NCBI RefSeq assembly: GCF_022170825.1
Contig: NZ_CP081878.1
Span: 274,001 to 338,000, forward strand
Reading direction: 5' to 3'
Source: Exiguobacterium acetylicum
Lineage (GTDB): Bacteria; Bacillota; Bacilli; Exiguobacteriales; Exiguobacteriaceae
DNA length: 64,000 nt
Shown: piece after piece, positions 13,123 to 64,000 of the stretch
Position numbering within the stretch: position 1 is the stretch's first letter
Layout of the letters: each line of letters begins with the position of its first letter
Translations under genes and position numbers: made by a program
The notes under the pieces: model-generated
Databases searched by the model: none
What the model was told of the DNA's origin: nothing
Seen by the model: the letters and a program-made list of their open reading frames with translations, nothing else

Positions 13123-13449
13123 TTACTGGACGTTCGTTTCGAGCGCATCTTTCGTAATATCGTAATGAGATGCTGTCCAAACGGACTTACCATCTTGAAT
13201 GAACAAGACTTGGGGTGACTCGTGTCGAACGCTATAGTGCTCGGCAATATGGTTCGACAATGTCCGAGCTTCTTGAACAAAGAGGTACGCCGTTGGAACA
13301 GACGTTTCATCGGCGAACTTCGTATACTCAGAAAAGCCAGCAGCGCTGATTGGGCATGTCGTACTGTGTTTGCAGATCACGAACGCTGTGTGTTCGGAAG
13401 CAAATTGATCAAAATCAGAAATCGATTGCAGTTTACGTGGTTGTGTCAT
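13123..13449 (-). CDS. ytxJ: bacillithiol-system redox protein YtxJ (monothiol thioredoxin fold)
   Basis: The 108-residue product has the same length as Bacillus YtxJ and its HSTTCPIS active-site segment (Cys32, with another Cys at 26), in a thioredoxin-like fold ending QVLFIQDGKSVW. YtxJ proteins act with bacillithiol, the Firmicute glutathione substitute, probably removing bacillithiol from protein cysteines. The ATG at 13449 is preceded by GGAGGG; an upstream frame to 13482 would overlap the neighbouring gene. It starts four bases after the TPP-enzyme gene stop and is thus part of that operon. Confidence 0.88.
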   Translation of the reverse strand: MTQPRKLQSISDFDQFASEHTAFVICKHSTTCPISAAGFSEYTKFADETSVPTAYLFVQEARTLSNHIAEHYSVRHESPQVLFIQDGKSVWTASHYDITKDALETNVQ

Positions 13450-13453
13450 ATTT

Positions 13454-15082
13454 TCACCCTCCATACGTCCGGAGACGTTCACTTAACTTTAGATTTTCCC
13501 GGTAATCGACCGGACAGTCAATTAAAACGGGTCCATCGCTCGCAAATGCTTGATCAAGACAGTGTGCAAGGGAACCGTGTTCACCGACACGAAGACCGAG
13601 TGCTCCGAAGGCATGAGCCAGTTGAACGAGATCCGGATTGTCGAACGTGATGTAGGACGAACGTCCGTAAGCTTGTTGTTGTTTCCATTCAATGAGTCCA
13701 TACGTTCCGTCACGCCAAATCAACACGACGAGCGGGAGTTTCAAGCGAACGGCAGTTTCAAGGTCCTGTCCATTCATCAAGAAGGCACCGTCTCCGGCAG
13801 CGCAGACGATTCGCCGGTCCGGATATAATAGCTTGGCTGCGAGCGCACTCGATAAACCATAGCCCATCGAAGCAAACCCGTTCGAAATGAATAATTGATT
13901 CGGACGCGTCGTTTGATAATGACGAGCGAGCCACACCTTATGAGCGCCGACGTCCGAGAAGACCATCCCATTCTCTCCGACAGTTCGCTCGAGTTCACGA
14001 ACGATACTTTGCGGGTGCAAAGGAAGTGCGAGCGAATACGTTTCTTGGATTTCTTCGCGTAATTTATCGCGATCGTGTTGCCAGCCGTCCCACGCGCGCT
14101 CGGGAAGTAACGGAGTCAACACAGTCAGCAATTCATCAAGTGGTCCGACTAAGTTCGCCACGACCGGGTAGTACGCATCGATTTCGTGCGGATTCGTATC
14201 GAGATGGACGACAGGTGTCTTTTTCGGGTTCCATTTTTGTGGGGGCAATTCGGTAATATCGTAGCCGACCGTAATGATGAGGTCACTCGCCTCAAGAATT
14301 CGCTGATTGTAATCGACGTCTGGTAAACCAATCGTGTGTGCAGCAAGTGGGTGATGCGAGGAAATCGCGCCTTTTCCCATCATCGTCTCAACGACAGGAA
14401 CCTGCAGTTTTTCAACGAATATTCGAAACGCATCAAGTGCTTGTTGCCTATGAATACCGAAACCAGCAATGATGACCGGCTGTTTTGCTCGCTCAATCAG
14501 ACGTAAAACGTCCGGGTCATCAATCGTTAAGGAGTGAAGATAGGTCGGTGCGCTATCACTTTGCATCGGTGTCATCGGTTGATCGCGTTCTTGTTTTGCG
14601 ATGTCTTCCGGAAAAGAGATGTGTGTCGCTCCCGGCTTTTCACTGCTCGCTGTCGCAAAGGCACGACGTACGATTTCCGGAATGACCTCTGCCGTCAAAA
14701 CGGACGTGCTTGATTTCGTGACAGGACGATACAGGTCAACGAGATCAAACATTTGGTGCGACGCCTTATGTTGGCGTGCCGTTGCGCCTTGACCCGTGAT
14801 GGCGACGACAGGGGAGTGATCCATCGTTGCACTCGCGATACCGGTCATCATATTGGTCGCGCCAGGACCAAGCGTCGACAGGCAAACACCCGGTCGTCCG
14901 CTCAGACGACCGAACATCGCTGCCATGAAAGCGGCATTCGTTTCATGGCGTGTCGTAATGAAGGTGATCGATGAACGACTGAGTGATTCGAGCAATGTGA
15001 TGTTTTCTTCTCCAGGAACGCCAAAAATATGTGTGACACCCTCTGCTTCTAAACATTGAACGAACCAATCCGCCGCGTTCAC
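13454..15082 (-). CDS. TPP-dependent enzyme of the acetolactate synthase family; possible 2-oxoglutarate decarboxylase
   Basis: The 542-residue protein has the three-domain layout of ThDP decarboxylases. It shows the N-terminal activating Glu in GVPGEENI, RHETNAAFMAAMFGRL, a central FAD/nucleotide-like domain, and the C-terminal ThDP motif GDGAFLMNGQDLETAV. By homology it would be called acetolactate synthase large subunit. It is, however, not in an ilv cluster and has no regulatory subunit. Its GTG overlaps by four bases the stop of a succinate-semialdehyde dehydrogenase gene. In some cyanobacteria the same pair, also annotated as acetolactate synthase, converts 2-oxoglutarate to succinate. 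That role is an inference here. Confidence 0.8.
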   Translation of the reverse strand: MNAADWFVQCLEAEGVTHIFGVPGEENITLLESLSRSSITFITTRHETNAAFMAAMFGRLSGRPGVCLSTLGPGATNMMTGIASATMDHSPVVAITGQGATARQHKASHQMFDLVDLYRPVTKSSTSVLTAEVIPEIVRRAFATASSEKPGATHISFPEDIAKQERDQPMTPMQSDSAPTYLHSLTIDDPDVLRLIERAKQPVIIAGFGIHRQQALDAFRIFVEKLQVPVVETMMGKGAISSHHPLAAHTIGLPDVDYNQRILEASDLIITVGYDITELPPQKWNPKKTPVVHLDTNPHEIDAYYPVVANLVGPLDELLTVLTPLLPERAWDGWQHDRDKLREEIQETYSLALPLHPQSIVRELERTVGENGMVFSDVGAHKVWLARHYQTTRPNQLFISNGFASMGYGLSSALAAKLLYPDRRIVCAAGDGAFLMNGQDLETAVRLKLPLVVLIWRDGTYGLIEWKQQQAYGRSSYITFDNPDLVQLAHAFGALGLRVGEHGSLAHCLDQAFASDGPVLIDCPVDYRENLKLSERLRTYGG

Positions 15083-16515
15083 GCTAAACCACCGATTGAG
15101 ATATATTTCGTCTCGAGATAGGCTTCGAGCCCTTCGCTGCCACCTTCACGACCGACACCGGACTGCTTCATGCCACCAAATGGTGCTTGTGCTGCTGAAG
15201 GGACCCCATCATTCCAACCGACGATTCCGTAATCGAGCCCTTCGATCGCACGGATCGCGCGGGCATAATCCTTCGTAAAGACGTAGGAAGCGAGACCGAA
15301 TGGAGTCTGGTTCGCATAATGGACCGCTTCTTCGTCTGAACTGACACGTTGTACTGGTGCGACCGGACCAAACGTCTCTTCGTTCATGATCAACATGCCT
15401 GGTTTCACATCAGCTAGAACGGTTGCCTCATAATAATAGACGTCATTCTCTTCATCAGCGTTACCAGTGCCGCCTGTGACGACTCGCGCACCAGCGGATG
15501 TCGCATCGTCGACGTGTTTTTTTACTTTATCGTAACCGGACTTATTGATCATCGGTCCGATCTTCGTCTCAGCCTCAAGACCATTTCCGGTCTTCAGCTT
15601 CGCCGTTTCTTGTCCGAGTTTTTCAACGAACGCGTCATAAATCGAGTCGGATACGTAAATCCGGTTTCCACAGACACACGTCTGTCCGCCATTGCGGAAT
15701 TTTGACTTGATCGTCTCAGCAACAGCTAAATCAAGGTCGCAGTCATCAAAAACAAGGATTGGTGCGTGACCACCGAGTTCAAGCGACATTGCCTTGATTG
15801 TCTCTGCTCCTTGTGCCATCAATGTCCGTCCGACTTCTGTTGAACCGGTGAAGGTAATCTTATCAACGTGTGGATGTGTCGCGAGTGATTCGCCAAGTGC
15901 TTTCCCGCTACCCGTCACCGCATTAACGACACCTTCAGGAATCCCGACTTCCTGACACAGTTCAAGGAGACGAAGAGCGGTCAGCGGAGTCGCTGTTGGT
16001 GGTTTTAGGACAAACGTGCACCCAGCGACGAGTGCCGGAGCTAATTTTCGTGTAATCATAGCAGCTGGAAAGTTCCACGGTGTGATCGCAGCAACGACAC
16101 CGACCGGCTGTTTGATGACTTGTAATCGTTTGCCTGCATCATGCGTCGGAATGACGCGACCATAAGCACGTTTTCCTTCTTCCGCAAACCACTTGACGAA
16201 GTTTGCTGCATACTGGACTTCACCTTCTGATTCGGCAAGTGGTTTCCCCATCTCAAGTGTCATCAAGCGAGCCAGTTCATCCTTTTTCTCGATCATCTTC
16301 GTATACAACTTCTCGAGTAATTCAGCTCGTTCATAGACTGTTCGTTTTGACCAGTCAGGAAACGCTTTTCGCGCTGCTTCCACGGCATCGTTGACATCTT
16401 CTTTCGTGCCGTTTGGTACACTACCGACGACTTCCCCGGTCGCCGGATTTGTAACGTCCGTTCGTTCTCGTCCATGATCGAGCCATTGTCCATCGATGAA
16501 AAATTGTCCATTCAT
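15079..16515 (-). CDS. gabD: NAD(P)-dependent succinate-semialdehyde dehydrogenase
   Basis: The 478-residue aldehyde dehydrogenase has the family landmarks: AITPWNFPAAMITRKLAPAL, TGSTEVGRTL, the general base Glu in SLELGGHAP, the nucleophilic Cys in GGQTCVCGNR (the paired Cys typical of SSADH) and EETFGPVAP. It oxidises succinic semialdehyde to succinate. It is the first gene of an operon with the TPP enzyme and ytxJ. No GABA transaminase gene is adjacent, so the semialdehyde probably comes from the TPP enzyme. GGGGGATTTT precedes the start. Confidence 0.9.
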   Translation of the reverse strand: MNGQFFIDGQWLDHGRERTDVTNPATGEVVGSVPNGTKEDVNDAVEAARKAFPDWSKRTVYERAELLEKLYTKMIEKKDELARLMTLEMGKPLAESEGEVQYAANFVKWFAEEGKRAYGRVIPTHDAGKRLQVIKQPVGVVAAITPWNFPAAMITRKLAPALVAGCTFVLKPPTATPLTALRLLELCQEVGIPEGVVNAVTGSGKALGESLATHPHVDKITFTGSTEVGRTLMAQGAETIKAMSLELGGHAPILVFDDCDLDLAVAETIKSKFRNGGQTCVCGNRIYVSDSIYDAFVEKLGQETAKLKTGNGLEAETKIGPMINKSGYDKVKKHVDDATSAGARVVTGGTGNADEENDVYYYEATVLADVKPGMLIMNEETFGPVAPVQRVSSDEEAVHYANQTPFGLASYVFTKDYARAIRAIEGLDYGIVGWNDGVPSAAQAPFGGMKQSGVGREGGSEGLEAYLETKYISIGGLA

Positions 16516-16734
16516 CCTGAAAATCCCCCTTTTTTTATGTGCATTGATAAGGGTATACCCGAACGACGAAAAAAAGATTCACTTTGGGAAGGAAAGGTTA
16601 TGCAAAAGGGTAGAAATCGACCGATAAACAGTGTAGGATAATTCAGTAAATGTAATGTAAAACAACATGAAATATTCAGCGTGAACAAAGAGTGACAGTA
16701 GTTGATGTGAAATGGTGGAATCACCCCTGAGACA

Positions 16735-16762
16735 TTGACTTTAGAAGTGGATTTGATAAGAT
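16735..16762 (+). promoter_or_regulatory. SigA-type promoter for the alpha-glucosidase gene
   Basis: TTGACT and TAAGAT are separated by 16 bases. The predicted start point falls in the LacI-type operator that follows. Confidence 0.6.
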
Positions 16763-16775
16763 GAAGGTAGAGGAT

Positions 16776-16794
16776 TTGCGCAATCGGTTGCGCT
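16776..16794. promoter_or_regulatory. LacI/MalR-type operator
   Basis: TTGCGCAATCGGTTGCGCT has perfect GCGCAA/TTGCGC arms around a CG-centred spacer, the form bound by LacI-family sugar repressors including maltose regulators. It sits right after the -10, ideal for repression. No lacI-type gene is in this window. Confidence 0.7.
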
Positions 16795-16865
16795 GTAAAT
16801 GATAACTATTTAATGGATGACAAAAAAGCTCACTAATGACTGACCTACGAGAGGATTCACGACAC

Positions 16866-18566
16866 ATGACACAAATGATACCGCGCCCTGAAACGGCCCA
16901 ACAAACAATTACACGAGCTTGGTGGAAAGAAGCAGTTGCTTACCAAATCTACCCACGCAGCTTTTATGACGCAAACAACGATGGAATCGGCGATATTCCG
17001 GGTATCATCGCAAAACTCGATTATTTGAAGGATCTTGGCGTTGATGTGCTTTGGATTTGTCCGATGTTCAAATCGCCAAATGATGATAATGGCTATGACA
17101 TTAGTGATTATGAAGACATCATGGATGAATTCGGTACGATGGCTGACTTCGATCTCTTAATGGAAGAAGCGCATAAACGTGACATTAAGGTCTTGCTCGA
17201 TCTCGTTGTCAACCACACGTCTGATGAACATCCGTGGTTCATTGAATCACGTTCATCAAAAGACAACGAGAAACGCGACTGGTACATCTGGAAAGATGCG
17301 ATCAATGGTGGTGAACCGAATAACTGGGAAAGTATCTTTGGTGGATCAGCATGGGAATATGATGAAAAGACAGAGCAATACTTCTTGCACGTCTTCTCAC
17401 GTCGTCAGCCGGACTTGAACTGGCAAAACCGTGATATGCGTCAAGCCGTCTATACGATGATCAACTGGTGGCTCGATAAAGGAATCGATGGTTTCCGCAT
17501 CGATGCGATCAGTCATATTAACAAAGACCAGTCGTTCGCAGACCTCCCGAACCCACTCGGTATGCCGTATGTGCCGTCATTCGATATGCACATGAACGTC
17601 GAAGGAATTCATGCCTATCTCGAAGAGTTAAAGGATGAGACATTCTCGAAATACGACATCATGACAGTCGGAGAAGCGAACGGCGTAACACCGGAAGAAG
17701 CAGATCTTTGGGTTGGAGAAGAAAACGGTAAGATGAACATGGTCTTCCAGTTCGAACATATGGATCTTTGGCGTGCCGATGCTGAAAAAGGCGTTGACGT
17801 CGTCAAACTCAAACAAGTGTTGACGAAATGGCAAAAAGGACTTGAAGCAACAGGGTGGAACGCACTGTACCTCGAAAACCACGATAAGGTTCGTTCGGTT
17901 TCCCTTTGGGGTGACGAAGAACAGTACTGGAAAGAGAGTGCGAAGTCGCTTGCGATGATGTATTTCTTCATGCAAGGTACACCGTTCATCTATCAAGGAC
18001 AAGAAATCGGCATGACAAACGTTCAGTTCCCGGACATCTCAGATTATGACGATGTTGCGACGAAGAACATGTACGATATGCAACTCGCTTCCGGGAAAAC
18101 ACATGAAGAGATCATGGAAGTCATCTGGAACTCGTCCCGTGATAACTCACGGACACCAATGCAATGGACGAACGAGCAAAACGGTGGTTTCTCGAATCGA
18201 TCCCCATGGTTCGGCGTTAATCCGAACTACGCGGATATCAACGTTGCGTCGCAAGAACAAGACGAAGATTCAATCTTGAACTTCTATAAACGAATGATTC
18301 AAATCCGTAAGATGGAAGAGACATTGATTTACGGGGCATACGATCTCATCTTACCGGAAGATACGAAAGTCTATGCGTATACACGGACGCTTGGTAACGA
18401 GCAATTCTTGATCGTCACGAACTTAAAAGGCGAGACGGCAGAAATCGATACGGACATCATCTTGCACTCGGACAATATGTTGCTCGGTAACTATCCGACG
18501 ATGCACCATGAAGGAACTGAACTGGAACTTCGTCCATTCGAAGCACGTCTGTACCGTGTACGCTAA
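16866..18566 (+). CDS. GH13 alpha-glucosidase / oligo-1,6-glucosidase
   Basis: The 566-residue cytoplasmic enzyme splits alpha-glucosidic bonds of short maltose- or isomaltose-type sugars. GH13 regions are clear: DVLWICPMFKSP, DLVVNHTSDEHPWF, the nucleophile in GFRIDAISH, the acid/base in TVGEANG, and LENHDKVRS. The residue after the nucleophile is Ala instead of the Val of typical oligo-1,6-glucosidases, which hints at alpha-1,4 preference, though this is only an indicator. The ATG at 16866 follows AGAGGA; the one at 16836 has no ribosome site. It is controlled by the operator at 16776. Confidence 0.9.
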   Translation: MTQMIPRPETAQQTITRAWWKEAVAYQIYPRSFYDANNDGIGDIPGIIAKLDYLKDLGVDVLWICPMFKSPNDDNGYDISDYEDIMDEFGTMADFDLLMEEAHKRDIKVLLDLVVNHTSDEHPWFIESRSSKDNEKRDWYIWKDAINGGEPNNWESIFGGSAWEYDEKTEQYFLHVFSRRQPDLNWQNRDMRQAVYTMINWWLDKGIDGFRIDAISHINKDQSFADLPNPLGMPYVPSFDMHMNVEGIHAYLEELKDETFSKYDIMTVGEANGVTPEEADLWVGEENGKMNMVFQFEHMDLWRADAEKGVDVVKLKQVLTKWQKGLEATGWNALYLENHDKVRSVSLWGDEEQYWKESAKSLAMMYFFMQGTPFIYQGQEIGMTNVQFPDISDYDDVATKNMYDMQLASGKTHEEIMEVIWNSSRDNSRTPMQWTNEQNGGFSNRSPWFGVNPNYADINVASQEQDEDSILNFYKRMIQIRKMEETLIYGAYDLILPEDTKVYAYTRTLGNEQFLIVTNLKGETAEIDTDIILHSDNMLLGNYPTMHHEGTELELRPFEARLYRVR

Positions 18567-18674: not shown

Positions 18675-19097
18675 GTGAAACCAGTACAGTACCCGGTGTC
18701 ATTGCGACAAGTGACGACGATCGAAGACGGTCCGATGCGTGAATCGGTCGAGCTTGAGGCAGACGGCACGTTGTTCGAAACAAAAGACGGCTTTGCCGTG
18801 AAGTTCGTTCAACCGGATGAACAACCGATTGATACGACGATCAAATGGTCGAAAGACCAGATCGCCTTGAATCGAAAAGGGCCTGTTGCGATGCATCATG
18901 TCTTCATTTTAGGGGAGACAACAAAAAGCCAGTATGGTAGTCAATTCGGTCAAATGTTGATGGAAACAGACACGGAGACGATTGAGATGCAATTACAACG
19001 GATGCAGTTCCGCTATACATTAAAAATGAATGGACAAGCAGTCGGTACGTATACGATTGATTTAACTTGGGAACGGAGTGAGACGAATGGCATTTGA
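18675..19097 (+). CDS. DUF1934 (YwiB-like) beta-barrel protein
   Basis: The 140-residue product resembles the DUF1934/YwiB family, a small calycin-like beta-barrel of unknown role. Recognisable parts are the FETKDGFAVKFVQPDE strand pair, GPVAMHHVF and the C-terminal FRYTLKMNGQAVGTYTIDL. The GTG at 18675 is chosen because GAGGTGAT precedes it at normal distance. Upstream in-frame codons run into the terminator of the previous gene. Its end overlaps the next gene by 11 bases, so the two are cotranslated. Confidence 0.72.
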   Translation: MKPVQYPVSLRQVTTIEDGPMRESVELEADGTLFETKDGFAVKFVQPDEQPIDTTIKWSKDQIALNRKGPVAMHHVFILGETTKSQYGSQFGQMLMETDTETIEMQLQRMQFRYTLKMNGQAVGTYTIDLTWERSETNGI

Positions 19098-19506
19098 ACA
19101 AACAGTACGTCAAATGGAACAGATGATGGAAGAAGAGTGGTTCGAGTGGCTCGAAAACGATGAGCCTCGCTACAACGAATGGCGTGATCAACTTGAAGGA
19201 CTCGCAGAACAGGTTATTACGGAGTATAATCCGAAGGTCGATCCGGAAGCGATCGATACGCTTCTTTTAATCAACGAAGAATTACCTGTCTTATACGGCG
19301 AAGATATCGTCATGCTGTACACAGCGCTCTTAAAAGCACGTCAGGAAGACGATCAAGTATACGAACGTTACTTGACGATCCTTGGTGCATTCGCGGACGA
19401 ACAGCATCCAGCAATCCGTGAAGTCGAAAAGTTAGTAGCGAAAAAAGACTATAAAAATGCTTTTGCACGTGCAGTCCGTCTGCCACACTCACTCGGCTTG
19501 GAGTAA
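19087..19506 (+). CDS. acidic helical protein of unknown function (139 aa)
   Basis: I do not recognise it. It is strongly acidic and almost wholly helical by composition (QMEQMMEEEWFEWLEND, then EDIVMLYTALLKARQEDDQ), with no membrane segment or obvious motif. The ATG at 19087 follows GGAGTGAGACGA. It overlaps the DUF1934 gene and ends at a terminator, so the pair forms a small operon and may work together. Confidence 0.7.
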   Translation: MAFEQTVRQMEQMMEEEWFEWLENDEPRYNEWRDQLEGLAEQVITEYNPKVDPEAIDTLLLINEELPVLYGEDIVMLYTALLKARQEDDQVYERYLTILGAFADEQHPAIREVEKLVAKKDYKNAFARAVRLPHSLGLE

Positions 19507-19516
19507 ACAATCAATC

Positions 19517-19550
19517 AGACCATCTTATTTTTTAGCAAGATGGTCTTTTT
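19517..19550 (+). terminator. terminator after the 139-residue gene
   Basis: AGACCATCTT pairs with AAGATGGTCT, followed by TTTTT. Confidence 0.85.
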
Positions 19551-19563
19551 AGGAGGAAGCGTC

Positions 19564-20001
19564 ATGTATCCACTCTATCGAATCATTGTCGCGATCATCC
19601 GTAAGGACGGTCAACTGCTCATCGTCAATAATCAATCGGGTCAGGAGAAGCGGTGGAGTTTACCCGGGGGACAAATTGAAGCGGGGGAGACGCTGGAGCA
19701 GGCACTTCATCGCGAGGTCGCTGAAGAAACGGGACTGATAGTCACGGCAGCATCATTTGCTTTTTTAACGGAGAACTTCATGCCAACTCATCAAGCACAC
19801 AGTCTCGTGACTTATTTTGATTGCGAGGTGAGCGGAGTACTTGATCCGAATGATCCTGACGAAGAAATCGTCGAGACGAAGTGGATCAACCAAAGGGAGC
19901 TAACGGAATACATCACAAGTGAGGACGTTCGTCTTCCGCTATGTACATATTTAACAGAGCAACACAAAGGTTATTACATGTTTGAAGAGATGAAGTGGTA
20001 A
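19564..20001 (+). CDS. NUDIX hydrolase
   Basis: The 145-residue protein has a complete Nudix box, GGQIEAGETLEQALHREV followed by AEETGL, which binds magnesium and hydrolyses nucleoside diphosphates linked to another group. The beta strand IVAIIRKDGQLLIVNN precedes it, as in MutT-like enzymes. AGGAGGAAG precedes the ATG at 19564. It stands alone between two terminators. Substrate unknown. Confidence 0.88.
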   Translation: MYPLYRIIVAIIRKDGQLLIVNNQSGQEKRWSLPGGQIEAGETLEQALHREVAEETGLIVTAASFAFLTENFMPTHQAHSLVTYFDCEVSGVLDPNDPDEEIVETKWINQRELTEYITSEDVRLPLCTYLTEQHKGYYMFEEMKW

Positions 20002-20004
20002 GCA

Positions 20005-20050
20005 AAAAGAACGGACTTGCTCCTGAAAAGGGATGGTCCGTTCTTTTGTT
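20005..20050 (+). terminator. terminator after the NUDIX gene
   Basis: AAAAGAACGGAC pairs with GTCCGTTCTTTT around a 19-base loop, then TTTG. Confidence 0.8.
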
Positions 20051-20191
20051 TAGAATGGCATATTTGACGTAGGAAATCTGACTAAGCATGTCTATCGAGA
20101 AAGCGCATATGACAAATTACTTTTAATAAATTTAAGTCATTTTTAAAGCATATTGAGCCAATCAATCAAAAGGAAATTTATTTGAAAATTT

Positions 20192-60945: not shown

Positions 60946-61332
60946 TCAAACGAGTCCTAAAATTTCGACTTCGACCAAGGCACCTTTTGGTAGTTCCTTA
61001 ACAGCGATACAAGACCGAGCTGGAAAGTGATCGTGCGGTGCGAAGTAATCAGAGTAGATCGTATTAAAAGAAGCGAAGTGTTCCATGCTTGTTAAGTAGC
61101 ATGTCGTCTTGACGACGCGGTCAGGTGTTAGTCCTGCTTCTTTCAGGATGGCGTCAACGTTTCGCATGACTTGTTCTGTCTGCTCGGTGATTCCGCCTGG
61201 TACGAGTTCACCTGTCGCTGGATCAATCGGGATTTGACCGGAAGCATAGAGTGTACCGCTCGCGATGAAGCCTTGTGAATAAGGACCGATTGCGGCAGGG
61301 GCGTTAGACGTTTCAATTTTTAAAAATGACAT
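60946..61332 (-). CDS. ridA: RidA family enamine/imine deaminase
   Basis: The 128-residue protein has the RidA pattern: NAPAAIGPYSQGF, LYASGQIPIDPATGELV, the carboxylate-binding Arg in FPARSCIAVKELPKGALVEVEI. RidA hydrolyses reactive enamines that PLP enzymes release. GGAGAGAAAT precedes the ATG. This is the last gene with normal composition; the DNA to its right becomes AT-rich within 20 bases of its start. Confidence 0.93.
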   Translation of the reverse strand: MSFLKIETSNAPAAIGPYSQGFIASGTLYASGQIPIDPATGELVPGGITEQTEQVMRNVDAILKEAGLTPDRVVKTTCYLTSMEHFASFNTIYSDYFAPHDHFPARSCIAVKELPKGALVEVEILGLV

Positions 61333-61339
61333 ATCTTAT

Positions 61340-61506
61340 TTCTCTCCATTCTTTTGGTAATAAGTACTTATTAGATAAAATACAATATAACTTCAAATTA
61401 CTTTTATTATAATCATTAACAATATAATATGAATAAAAAACCAAAAATGATATAATTTATTAGGGAAGTTGTGACAAATAAACATGAGAACTAAGGAGAA
61501 TTTATA
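61340..61506. promoter_or_regulatory. AT-rich leader and left edge of the accessory island
   Basis: The stretch is almost purely A and T, with a perfect TATAAT at 61451 and weaker copies at 61424. It probably carries the promoter for the ATPase gene. AAGGAG lies before the ATG at 61507. No direct repeat, tRNA end or integrase marks the border. Confidence 0.5.
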
Positions 61507-63243
61507 ATGCAAAATCAGGTTAATCCTTTTGTTTCATTTATGCATCAGTACGATTTAACTACAGCAGATTATTCGAAAATTTTTGACGAACATACTAAGA
61601 AAATCGAGTATAGCATTGATACAAATATTAACAAAAAAATTATCGAGGAGCTCTCAATATCTCCTCGCTCTATCATCATAACAGGTAATGCTGGAGATGG
61701 AAAAACCAGAATTTGTAGAAATGTATATGATCAATTAGTTGAGGAAGAGTTTAAAGGATGGCCAGAATCAGGTATAGCAGAGATTTCATATAAAAACTAT
61801 AGAATTCGAATAATAAAAGATTTATCGGAATTAAAAAATGAAGTTATCGTTGAAGAACTAAAAAAATTACAAGATTCCCTAGAAAACGATGAATCTAAGG
61901 TATATTTTCTCATTGCAGCTAATGAAGGGAAATTAACGCATACCCTTGTGAAATATTCTGAATTAAATAAATTAAAAAGTGTCGTCATTCCTCAATTTAT
62001 ATCAAACAATAAAGAACTAGAAATGACGAAAGAAATAAAAGTATATAACTTATTGTACGCATCATCGTCGATTTATGCTGAAAAAATCGTAGAAGGATGG
62101 AATGAAGAACAAAACTGGGATATTTGTAATGATTGTTCTAGTAAAAACATATGCATTATAAATAGCAATCATTTAGCTTTAAGTGATAAAACAACAAAAA
62201 ATCGAATGATGCGTATGTATAAATCTTTAGATATGAACGGTAAGCATATGACAATGCGAGAGCTACTCATTCACTTAGCCTATACGCAAACAGGCGGAAT
62301 GGCTTGCAAAGATATACATGAGGCTTCTAATAGTGAATCAATCCAAGCGTTAGCAAAAAAATCGTACTATGAGAACTTTTTTGGTAACAACCTTAGACCA
62401 GAAGTCTTTGAGGAAATTGGTGGCATCCAAGAATTTAAATCATTGGATCCTGGATACATTTCAGACTCTTTAATTGATGACTTTTTACTTAATGGTGACT
62501 TAAGTAGTAACGAACAAATAAAAGACACACATCACACTTTGTTTGGTAAAGATATTGATGTTGAAAACGGTGCTTATTATGAAGATGTAAAAATGTATCG
62601 TTCAAATATACATGGTGATAATGTGAACGGTGTTGAATTAATGAATAAATGGTTTCCTAGATTACGAAGAAAGTATTACTTTGAGTCTCAAGATAATAAA
62701 AAGGTTGAAAAATTAATCCCTTATCGTCACCGGTATGATTTTATAAGCATTCTTCATAGAGGAAAAATTGAACATAGCATAAAGGTTAAACTTGTAGATG
62801 GATTAAATACATTCTTCGCAAAGAGAATGGTGTATTCTCCTTCTCATCAGCTGTATGTATCTTCAGATAGTTTATTAGTTCATCAAATTATTGGGCTAGA
62901 TCAAGTGGAATTTCATATACAAGGTAAAAATGAAACAATAGATCAAACAGGTACAAAATTAACTTTGAGTGTACAAGGTGTAGAACTAGCTATTAATTTA
63001 GTGACTTTTGAATATCTAATGCGTTTGAGTAATGGGGGCATGTTAAACGTTTTGAGAGAACATGTAGAGATATTACTTAATAGTTTTCGAAATAGATTGA
63101 TTTCACTAAAAAAACAAGATGAAAATATTTTACAAATTTTGAAATTCGATCGTGTTCAAGGGGCATTTGTATTAGAGACAATTGAAATTAATGAAAATGG
63201 AGATACTGGTATAGATATTGATCCTGAAGATGATGATTTTTAA
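61507..63243 (+). CDS. P-loop ATPase of an AT-rich accessory island, possible defence component
   Basis: The 578-residue protein has a Walker A motif at residues 60-67 (IIITGNAGDGKT), a probable Walker B/sensor strand KVYFLIAANEGKLTH near 131-145, and a three-Cys cluster at 207-216 (WDICNDCSSKNIC) that may hold zinc or iron-sulfur. The rest is helical, with an acidic end (DIDPEDDDF). GNAGDGKT with a NEG loop and an inserted CxxC recall ATPases of phosphorothioation-linked restriction (DptF) and similar defence systems. This is a resemblance, not an identification. Codon use is AT-rich, unlike the other genes. A second gene follows 33 bases later. Confidence 0.75.
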   Translation: MQNQVNPFVSFMHQYDLTTADYSKIFDEHTKKIEYSIDTNINKKIIEELSISPRSIIITGNAGDGKTRICRNVYDQLVEEEFKGWPESGIAEISYKNYRIRIIKDLSELKNEVIVEELKKLQDSLENDESKVYFLIAANEGKLTHTLVKYSELNKLKSVVIPQFISNNKELEMTKEIKVYNLLYASSSIYAEKIVEGWNEEQNWDICNDCSSKNICIINSNHLALSDKTTKNRMMRMYKSLDMNGKHMTMRELLIHLAYTQTGGMACKDIHEASNSESIQALAKKSYYENFFGNNLRPEVFEEIGGIQEFKSLDPGYISDSLIDDFLLNGDLSSNEQIKDTHHTLFGKDIDVENGAYYEDVKMYRSNIHGDNVNGVELMNKWFPRLRRKYYFESQDNKKVEKLIPYRHRYDFISILHRGKIEHSIKVKLVDGLNTFFAKRMVYSPSHQLYVSSDSLLVHQIIGLDQVEFHIQGKNETIDQTGTKLTLSVQGVELAINLVTFEYLMRLSNGGMLNVLREHVEILLNSFRNRLISLKKQDENILQILKFDRVQGAFVLETIEINENGDTGIDIDPEDDDF

Positions 63244-63276
63244 ATCTAAGTAAAAGTGGTTGAAAGGGTGTTAGAG

Positions 63277-64000
63277 ATGCAAGAAGAAAGTACAAAATTT
63301 TCTAGTAAGATTGGTGCTGAAATATGGGGACATCGTTTTAAAGATGGACAGCGCGGACCAGAGTATACTTTAGAGTTTTTAAACGTATTTGCTGGAACAG
63401 GTTTTAGTCTAGAAAAGAAGTATTATGACCGAAGAAAAATGATTGAATTTCGCCAGTTTGTCTATGAAGGAGAGAAAGAGGGCGCAAAAGGTCATACTGC
63501 AATTTTTGAAGCAAAGAAAAAAGATGTAATTCAAAAGAAACTTGGAGTAAGTGAAAAACAATTAGAAGATTTACAAGTGTTCTTTAAAAATCTAACTATT
63601 CCTCTAATGACACCGATGGGAAAACCAGTTGATCGCTCTTGGTACGCTCAAATGATGTACCCTCTCCACGAGTCATTGCTTTTTTCTGAAGTTCGTGTAA
63701 ATAGAGATAAAGGTAACTCGAAAAATTTAACCATTAATTATGAACGTAATTTTTTTGCTCGTGGTGGAGAATTGTATTTTTTAATGTTGCATTATGGAAC
63801 CTTAAATAATCCTGAATTAAGGATTAGTATCGAGAAAAACATGAAAACACTACTATCTAGCTCTAGTGGGGTAATTGCTGTCATTAATCAAATTAATGAA
63901 GCATTTAGTGAGTATAGTACTGGAGATCAGCCGGCACCACTAATTAAAGATAAAGAATTATCGAATGTTATTACTAGTTGGGAAAGTAGTGAATATCCAA
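63277..64000 (+). CDS. unknown protein of the AT-rich island, N-terminal part
   Basis: From ATG 63277, preceded by GAAAGGGTG, 241 codons stay open to the window edge. The start reads QEESTKFSSKIGAEIWGHRFKDGQRGPEYT-like, then FLNVFAGTG, and further on NYERNFFARGGELYFLMLHYG. No transmembrane helix, nuclease or ATPase motif is seen. I do not recognise the family. Same orientation and composition as the ATPase gene suggest one operon. In dpt clusters a DptG protein follows DptF, but I cannot show similarity. Confidence 0.7.
   Translation, partial: MQEESTKFSSKIGAEIWGHRFKDGQRGPEYTLEFLNVFAGTGFSLEKKYYDRRKMIEFRQFVYEGEKEGAKGHTAIFEAKKKDVIQKKLGVSEKQLEDLQVFFKNLTIPLMTPMGKPVDRSWYAQMMYPLHESLLFSEVRVNRDKGNSKNLTINYERNFFARGGELYFLMLHYGTLNNPELRISIEKNMKTLLSSSSGVIAVINQINEAFSEYSTGDQPAPLIKDKELSNVITSWESSEYP

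Follow-up and report, generated by a model that had tools for sequence, protein, structure and literature searches.

An AT-rich island after ridA in Exiguobacterium acetylicum and its very probable identity as a complete SspBCD–SspFGH phosphorothioate restriction-modification system

The SspBCD–SspFGH kind of phosphorothioate (PT) restriction-modification system was described in Vibrio in 2021 (Wang et al., PMC8092258). In the Vibrio work, the mark is a single-strand PT at CpsCA, protection is PT-dependent, and SspFGH is toxic when unprotected. The nuclease subunit is left unnamed in that work; SspFGH and DndFGH are reported there to have no significant identity, with shared characteristics being suspected. 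SspABCD–SspE has the same SspBCD modification module, whereas SspE needs PT to act and SspFGH acts on PT-free DNA (PMC8092258). Type 4 BREX also has homologues of SspB, SspC and SspD (PMC12839542). The present analysis concerns a stretch of 64,000 nucleotides from Exiguobacterium acetylicum (contig NZ_CP081878.1, positions 274,001 to 338,000; hereafter the window), which ends in two genes that are very probably sspF and sspG and open a complete SspBCD–SspFGH island.

An initial annotation of the window, made from its letters alone, had described this end as possibly the start of a transferred anti-phage module, which could be dptF–dptG or a system not yet described. The drop in G+C content reported after ridA is present: the final three 1-kb segments have values of 0.344, 0.313 and 0.327, and none of the other 61 goes below 0.402. 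The two same-strand genes were found as well. The first, an open reading frame (ORF) at 61507-63243 (+), encodes an ATPase of 578 residues, in which the Walker A motif (G60-T67), the NEG-type loop (N139) and the CxxC-x5-C cluster (C207-x2-C210-x5-C216) were all located. The partner, given as at least 241 residues, has 248 from GTG or 242 from ATG inside the window. The island is indeed cut by the window end, as the partner has 546 residues (540 from ATG) in the genome, with its stop at L002 5896. Here the window corresponds to G000:C1:274001-338000, G000 being a genome of 3.36 Mb; L002 is G000:C1:333001-353000, and a window position minus 59000 gives the L002 position. Extension to the right and profile searches with PADLOC, both of which had been proposed, uncovered sspH with its FtsK-like C-terminus, sspB, sspC and sspD beyond the window end and assigned ATPase and partner to SspF and SspG. 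The features are as follows.

61507..63243 (L002 2507-4243), plus strand: sspF, NTPase of 578 residues; PADLOC PDLC02796, E 3.8e-245, residues 6-532
GTG 63256 or ATG 63274 to 64896 in window numbering (L002 4256/4274-5896), plus strand: sspG; PADLOC PDLC02801, E 5.4e-143
L002 5926-11124, plus strand: sspH, 1732 residues; PADLOC PDLC02806, E 2.2e-92; PF01580 (FtsK), E 5.3e-43, at 1482-1656
L002 11188-12054, plus strand: sspB; PADLOC PDLC02769, E 1.6e-55; PF13182 (DUF4007), E 1.5e-69
L002 12051-15398, plus strand: sspC, ATPase of 1115 residues; PADLOC PDLC02779, E 7e-95
L002 15499-16383, minus strand: sspD, 294 residues; PADLOC PDLC02782, E 2.8e-12; PF01507 over cut-off
61333..61506, plus strand: AT-rich leader before sspF; G+C 0.20; promoter-like sites near chance level
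60946..61332, minus strand: ridA (Rid family), conserved left flank outside the system; PF01042, E 6.9e-42

The AT-rich island measures approximately 14 kb. It opens in the last 2.7 kb of the window and keeps a low G+C content until about L002 15.4 kb, with 0.28-0.34 per kb over L002 2001-15000 and 0.391 in sspD. The genes sspF-sspG-sspH-sspB-sspC all lie on the plus strand, the start of sspC overlapping the end of sspB, and are followed by sspD on the minus strand, which extends to 75383 in window numbering. The part of sspG inside the window (63256..64000) is matched by its PADLOC model on its own (E 9.8e-64), and SspB matches the solved SspB structure 6juf (E 9.2e-17). The idea of a transferred anti-phage module was borne out, because all six island genes are Ssp genes in PADLOC and the island occurs in only some species. 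The alternative of an undescribed system fell away, since SspBCD–SspFGH has already been published (PMC8092258). While the system kind is known, the SspH nuclease signature, the fold link between SspG and DndG and the separate SspD lineage are new here.

Compared with SspABCD–SspFGH of Vibrio anguillarum FF-93 (PMC8092258), SspB, SspC, SspD, SspF, SspG and SspH again lie side by side, SspF has a Walker A motif, and the C-terminus of SspH is FtsK-like. No sspA is adjacent, as in loci served by IscS. The differences are the FGH-B-C order and the convergent sspD outside the operon. SspD also belongs to another lineage than the other ssp-linked SspD proteins compared, Vibrio SspD itself being outside that comparison. 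Unlike SspABCD–SspE, the island has no sspE beside it among the 8 proteins scanned with PADLOC (the six island genes and neighbours). Across the genome, PF00266 (aminotransferase class V) has 11 matches, 10 of them over cut-off, as candidate desulfurases. Unlike in G000, a class V aminotransferase, probably SspA, lies within the ssp cluster in L062 (3896-5092, genome G074), L121 and L130.

Several lines of evidence relate the restriction subunits to those of Dnd systems. In an alignment of nine SspF sequences, T59-T67 (including the Walker A stretch GNAGDGKT), C210, C216 and C267 are invariant, and C207 is not. Profile comparison of SspF with DndF gave a probability of 90.8 (E 1.2e-6; reversed control 0.1) over a stretch that reaches beyond the Walker A region. 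Among solved structures, sequence searches returned weak matches only for SspF (best E 0.11) and none for SspG. The latter was modelled from the E. antarcticum protein with 54 sequences (mean predicted local distance difference test, pLDDT, of 90.3). In the PDB, only DndG (7EXX) matches this model strongly, with VIA Z 15.3 over 377 residues, a root-mean-square deviation (rmsd) of 7.7 and 10% identity, the next match being at Z 3.7; Foldseek gave E 2.8e-3 and probability 1.00. A sequence-profile match between SspG and DndG is absent (probability 1.2), which speaks against the link and leaves a likeness in fold only. As the SspG model strongly matches DndG alone, the FGH complexes of Ssp and Dnd systems seem to be a single kind of machine. 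Two SspF relatives, L063 (G388) and L136 (G153), carry an N-terminal extension with a NERD domain and two kinase stretches. NERD and kinase domains are reported for some DndF proteins (Rakesh et al. 2024, PMC10853773), in a paper whose main text does not mention SspF, SspG or SspH. A 2025 review calls sspFGH 'homologs' of dndFGH in passing (PMC12707154). No paper pairing SspG with DndG was found, a weak absence as most subscription papers and preprints fell outside the search; within the same bounds, PMC8092258 was the only paper found on SspF with DndF.

SspH was examined in 52 full-length sequences, comprising the 49 of the best 80 loci with an H ORF of more than 1500 residues together with G000, G015 and G057; near-identical rows (L088/G000, L089/L090) are counted separately. 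A PD-(D/E)XK signature is present in 52/52, with D1113, E1136, K1138 and Q1155 invariant and position 1075 occupied by E in 47, D in 3 and G in 2. Profile comparison of SspH 952-1702 with DndH of G010 gave a probability of 96.7 (E 3.6e-10; reversed control 0.4) and places the D and E-x-K of SspH over DDL and EVK of DndH. The SspH-like proteins of G015 and G057 match DndH weakly by profile (probability 36.7, motor only). In an AlphaFold2 model of E. antarcticum SspH (residues 540-1380, built with 48 sequences; mean pLDDT 80.5), residues 731-1012 have the fold of a class I methyltransferase, with Z up to 16.4 over 185 residues and an rmsd of 3.1. The methyltransferase motifs GxGxG (after strand 1) and [DNS]PP[YFW] occur in this part in 0/48. 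The domain order is thus a methyltransferase fold without its motifs, the nuclease signature and FtsK/HerA, as in DndH, for which inactive methyltransferase, nuclease and FtsK/HerA are reported (PMC10853773).

Set against this, no match in fold was obtained for a nuclease in SspH. Pfam analysis of the 48 SspH segments returned no restriction nuclease among the matches listed (25 of 54 families), which include one XPG_N match at E 0.055. The Foldseek matches listed for the model contain Card1 (6xl1), which we take to carry a PD-(D/E)XK domain, at rank 28 (E 0.028, probability 0.21), and no PD-(D/E)XK-bearing entry was recognised among the best 50 VIA matches. Both structure searches give the nuclease domain no support because the methyltransferase part fills their lists. 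On its conserved residues and the profile match with DndH, rather than on fold, SspH is likely the DNA cutter, acting through a PD-(D/E)XK site. This would name residues for SspFGH, whose DNA damage was reported without a named nuclease. Together with the SspG–DndG fold match, the signature connects two systems between which the original paper saw no sequence relationship. For SspH with PT and nuclease, PMC8092258 was the only paper found in a search outside which most subscription papers and preprints lay.

This kinship bears on the dptF–dptG assignment, in which the genes would be dndF and dndG (dptF and dptG) and phosphorothioation would be double-stranded by DndBCDE. The distant relationship stood, with SspF resembling DndF by profile, SspG resembling DndG by fold and SspH resembling DndH by profile and domain order, and the same ridA site holds Dnd proteins in G010 and G006 (PADLOC) and, judged by ORF sizes only, G013. 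The assignment itself did not stand: none of the G000 proteins matched a DndF, DndG or DndH model at E<=0.01, their sequences being too distant, the best models were those of Ssp, and the modification genes are sspB (DUF4007) and sspC, so that the partner is SspBCD rather than DndBCDE. A Dnd/Dpt system is therefore exceedingly improbable. Equally improbable is an FtsK-containing system of another kind, such as a methylation-associated defence system (MADS). The C-terminus of SspH matches mad8 (E 2.8e-21), a neighbouring kinase-like protein does so weakly (E 0.00024), and SspG has a weak match to the MAD7 model far below cut-off (E 0.0051). However, the match of SspH is limited to the motor domain (1492-1695), mad8 is the only MADS model and no methyltransferase model is matched among the 8 scanned proteins, and SspB and SspC are present.

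The sixth gene, sspD, required closer consideration. Its relatives were compared in a midpoint-rooted FastTree of 61 sequences, without SspD of the Vibrio, E. coli or Streptomyces Ssp systems. These comprised 31 from Bacilli (G000 and 30 of the 34 homologues, the other four lacking a fetched locus; near-identical sequences kept), 20 from other ssp loci, mostly metagenome-assembled genomes of Chloroflexota and Clostridia, and 10 hand-picked mobile-element proteins (4 out of 91 records for phages, 5 out of 30 for plasmids, and a single G017 locus whose many short ORFs suggested a prophage). The Bacilli group has a support of 0.784, joins the 10 mobile-element proteins at 0.755 and is set apart from the 20 others at 1.0. 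Identity to G000 SspD is 30-41% in the mobile-element set and averages 22% (maximum 24%) in the other ssp loci. C117, C211 and C215 are conserved in 61/61, and the PP-loop S40-G41-G42 in nearly all. By these sequence comparisons, SspD here is a separate lineage, nearer to the compared phage and plasmid 3'-phosphoadenosine-5'-phosphosulfate (PAPS) reductase-like proteins than to SspD of the other ssp loci, which makes a link between an enzyme of sulfur-based immunity and phage genes whose role is obscure. On the PADLOC SspD model, three proteins from other ssp loci scored 6.3e-89 to 7e-115 and the collinear Gottfriedia SspD 4.3e-10; systems with such a divergent SspD may therefore be called incomplete. 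The nearest solved relative is PptA (21fy, E 3.2e-17), and a literature search on this depositors' name found nothing related.

In 34 Bacilli genomes, which were selected for having SspF, a homologue of sspD lies beside the ssp genes in 34/34, with 68-99% identity in 33 and pieces of 57-75% in G445. In 26 genomes it shares the strand of the ssp genes, lying downstream of them in 25 and upstream in 1; in the 8 where it is on the opposite strand, it lies downstream in 6 and upstream in 2.

These data also bear on the alternative of a decayed or incomplete island, in which the inverted PAPS-reductase-like gene would be a stray phage gene, sspD would be missing, and the system would be dead or purely restrictive. 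The convergent orientation of the gene, the closeness of its product to mobile-element proteins and its weak PADLOC score would fit this idea. Nevertheless, the linkage in 34/34 Bacilli genomes, mostly on the same strand, led to the rejection of a stray phage gene; moreover, no other gene of the genome matches PF01507 at E<=0.001, sspD has no nonsynonymous change compared with G002, and its product retains the PP-loop and the three cysteines. Selection should also disfavour losing sspD by itself, given the toxicity of SspFGH without protection (PMC8092258). A decayed island is consequently very unlikely, if slightly less so than a Dnd or MADS assignment. Some observations detract from a complete SspBCD–SspFGH island. 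SspA, like SspE, is missing from the 8 scanned proteins, and G000 SspD is weak on the sole PADLOC SspD model that it matches, on which four PAPS-reductase-like proteins of phage, plasmid and prophage type score alike (2.1e-7 to 1.6e-16). Around sspD there are 0 promoter-like sites, compared with 4.6 +/- 1.8 in shuffles. The frames of sspF (at its end) and sspC are broken in G002 (L032 1523-3139 and 11074-14420), through sequencing error or decay. Between sspC and sspD lies a 20-pair hairpin with a T-rich tail (L002 15445-15492), and sspD is therefore probably its own transcript; the region holds 3 terminator-like sites, two being that hairpin, versus 0.7 +/- 0.8 in shuffles. In the leader, 4 promoter-like sites were counted on both strands of L002 2300-2520, with 2.0 +/- 1.6 in shuffles.

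A further idea, which is rather doubtful, is that Bacilli SspD and the PAPS reductase-like proteins widespread in phages and plasmids are one enzyme family. Phages would use their own loader with host SspBC, or with own partners, to mark phage DNA with PT and pass SspFGH or DndFGH as self, and islands and phages would have exchanged the gene. The SspD-like gene of phage HanShotFirst adjoins a NifU-like gene (L199 1495-2828), and those of Rossellomorea and Streptomyces plasmids lie near a DNA cytosine methyltransferase (L083; L085). These neighbours hint at a DNA-modifying role.

For the complete SspBCD–SspFGH island, the following mechanism is proposed. A housekeeping cysteine desulfurase would hand sulfur to SspD, a predicted PP-loop ATP pyrophosphatase, and SspB (a putative DUF4007 nickase) with the ATPase SspC would, at short motifs, incorporate it into a single strand of the DNA. 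DNA without sulfur marks would then be attacked by the NTPase SspF together with SspG and SspH. SspG, with its predicted DndG-like fold, probably reads DNA, and the FtsK/HerA motor and PD-(D/E)XK nuclease of SspH may cut, guided by SspG and the dead methyltransferase. What we infer is a nuclease role for SspH, its feeding by translocation, the reading of DNA by SspG and activity of the system in this host. The chemistry of the mark and the toxicity of unprotected SspFGH are carried over by analogy from the Vibrio work; gene identities and order, patchy presence, conserved putative catalytic residues, domain order and kinship with DndFGH were computed here. As a speculation, an sspD outside the operon on the opposite strand, as in 8 of 34 loci, might let protection be expressed independently of restriction.

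Within the genus, ridA is present in 19/19 Exiguobacterium genomes and full-length SspF in 3/19 (G000, G002, G003), with sspG at the site in the same three and all three islands directly after ridA. The comparison of related strains thus returned an island of limited distribution rather than housekeeping neighbours of normal composition everywhere, or a metabolic family. A fourth genome, G015, encodes a distant SspF-like protein; the other 15 have no SspF match, and among those an sspD relative occurs in G017 only (38%). Between G000 and G003, DNA identity is 88.7-92.9% in the ssp genes and 77.4% in ridA; therefore, the island moved or was exchanged between lineages. Against this stands the comparison with G002, where island and flank do not contrast (ssp genes 93.1-95.2%, ridA 91.8%, lacI 95.0%). 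In each of the six ssp genes, codon differences from either genome are more often synonymous than nonsynonymous, sspD having 60 synonymous and 0 nonsynonymous versus G002 and 58 and 3 versus G003.

The cargo of the ridA site in island-free genomes was sampled through 8 large ORFs picked from 5 genomes, of which 8/8 matched a PADLOC model at E<=1e-10. These and the cargo of G015 are listed below.

G010, ridA site: DndF, DndH (PADLOC)
G006, ridA site: DndH (PADLOC)
G012, ridA site: type I restriction endonuclease, DruE (PADLOC)
G004, ridA site: BrxC, PglX (PADLOC)
G005, ridA site: MzaC (PADLOC)
G015, ridA site (L047 6039-15829): DruA, then SspF/G/H-like proteins

At the site, ORFs of G007, G013 and G018 match in size only. 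The ridA site is likely a defence hotspot in Exiguobacterium, with Ssp, Dnd, BREX, Druantia, type I and Mza in the part of the cargo scanned, and could be mined as such. By title, the literature found on Exiguobacterium with phosphorothioate consists of the Dnd database dndDB, and otherwise of pesticides, mosquito gut microbes and similar subjects. In G015, there is no sspD relative in the genome and no SspB or SspC match among the 7 proteins scanned, and its set is possibly an FGH module with another partner; G057 (L071) carries an F/G/H-like set resembling it. An ORF of approximately 770 residues beside ridA is homologous in 14/16 island-free genomes, the G015 copy having phospholipase D-like and helicase domains (Pfam). 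The same-sized ORFs of G006 and G013 proved unrelated on comparison. The three island genomes have only a 37-38% relative of this protein, located elsewhere.

Relatives beyond the genus were collected by a profile scan of genome contigs with the nine-row SspF alignment, and the best 80 of 270 loci were retained. By record title, 34 of these are Bacilli; Exiguobacterium and Paenibacillus were looked up, and the remaining loci presumably belong to this class. The gene order is F-G-H-B-C in 33 and B-C-D-F-G-H in 1. A phylum sample of 398 genomes, including G000, contained 13 in which SspF had a match at E<=0.001, weak in some cases. In L114, sspH is split into three ORFs (13272-18384), and in L091 sspB into two (18688-20158), by sequencing error or decay. 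L098 (Jeotgalibacillus sp. ET6) has an SspF of 39% identity to that of G000, an SspD of 89% and an unusually close SspC. With SspF distant and SspD and SspC close, there seems to have been an exchange of restriction and modification modules. In five Clostridia-type loci (L063, L065, L067, L068 and L069), sspH is followed by a second sspB/sspC-like pair, either whole or partial. In E. acetylicum, the island is adjoined by a HepT-family RNase toxin-like gene at L002 17464-17883 on the minus strand (NCBIfam NF047751, over cut-off).

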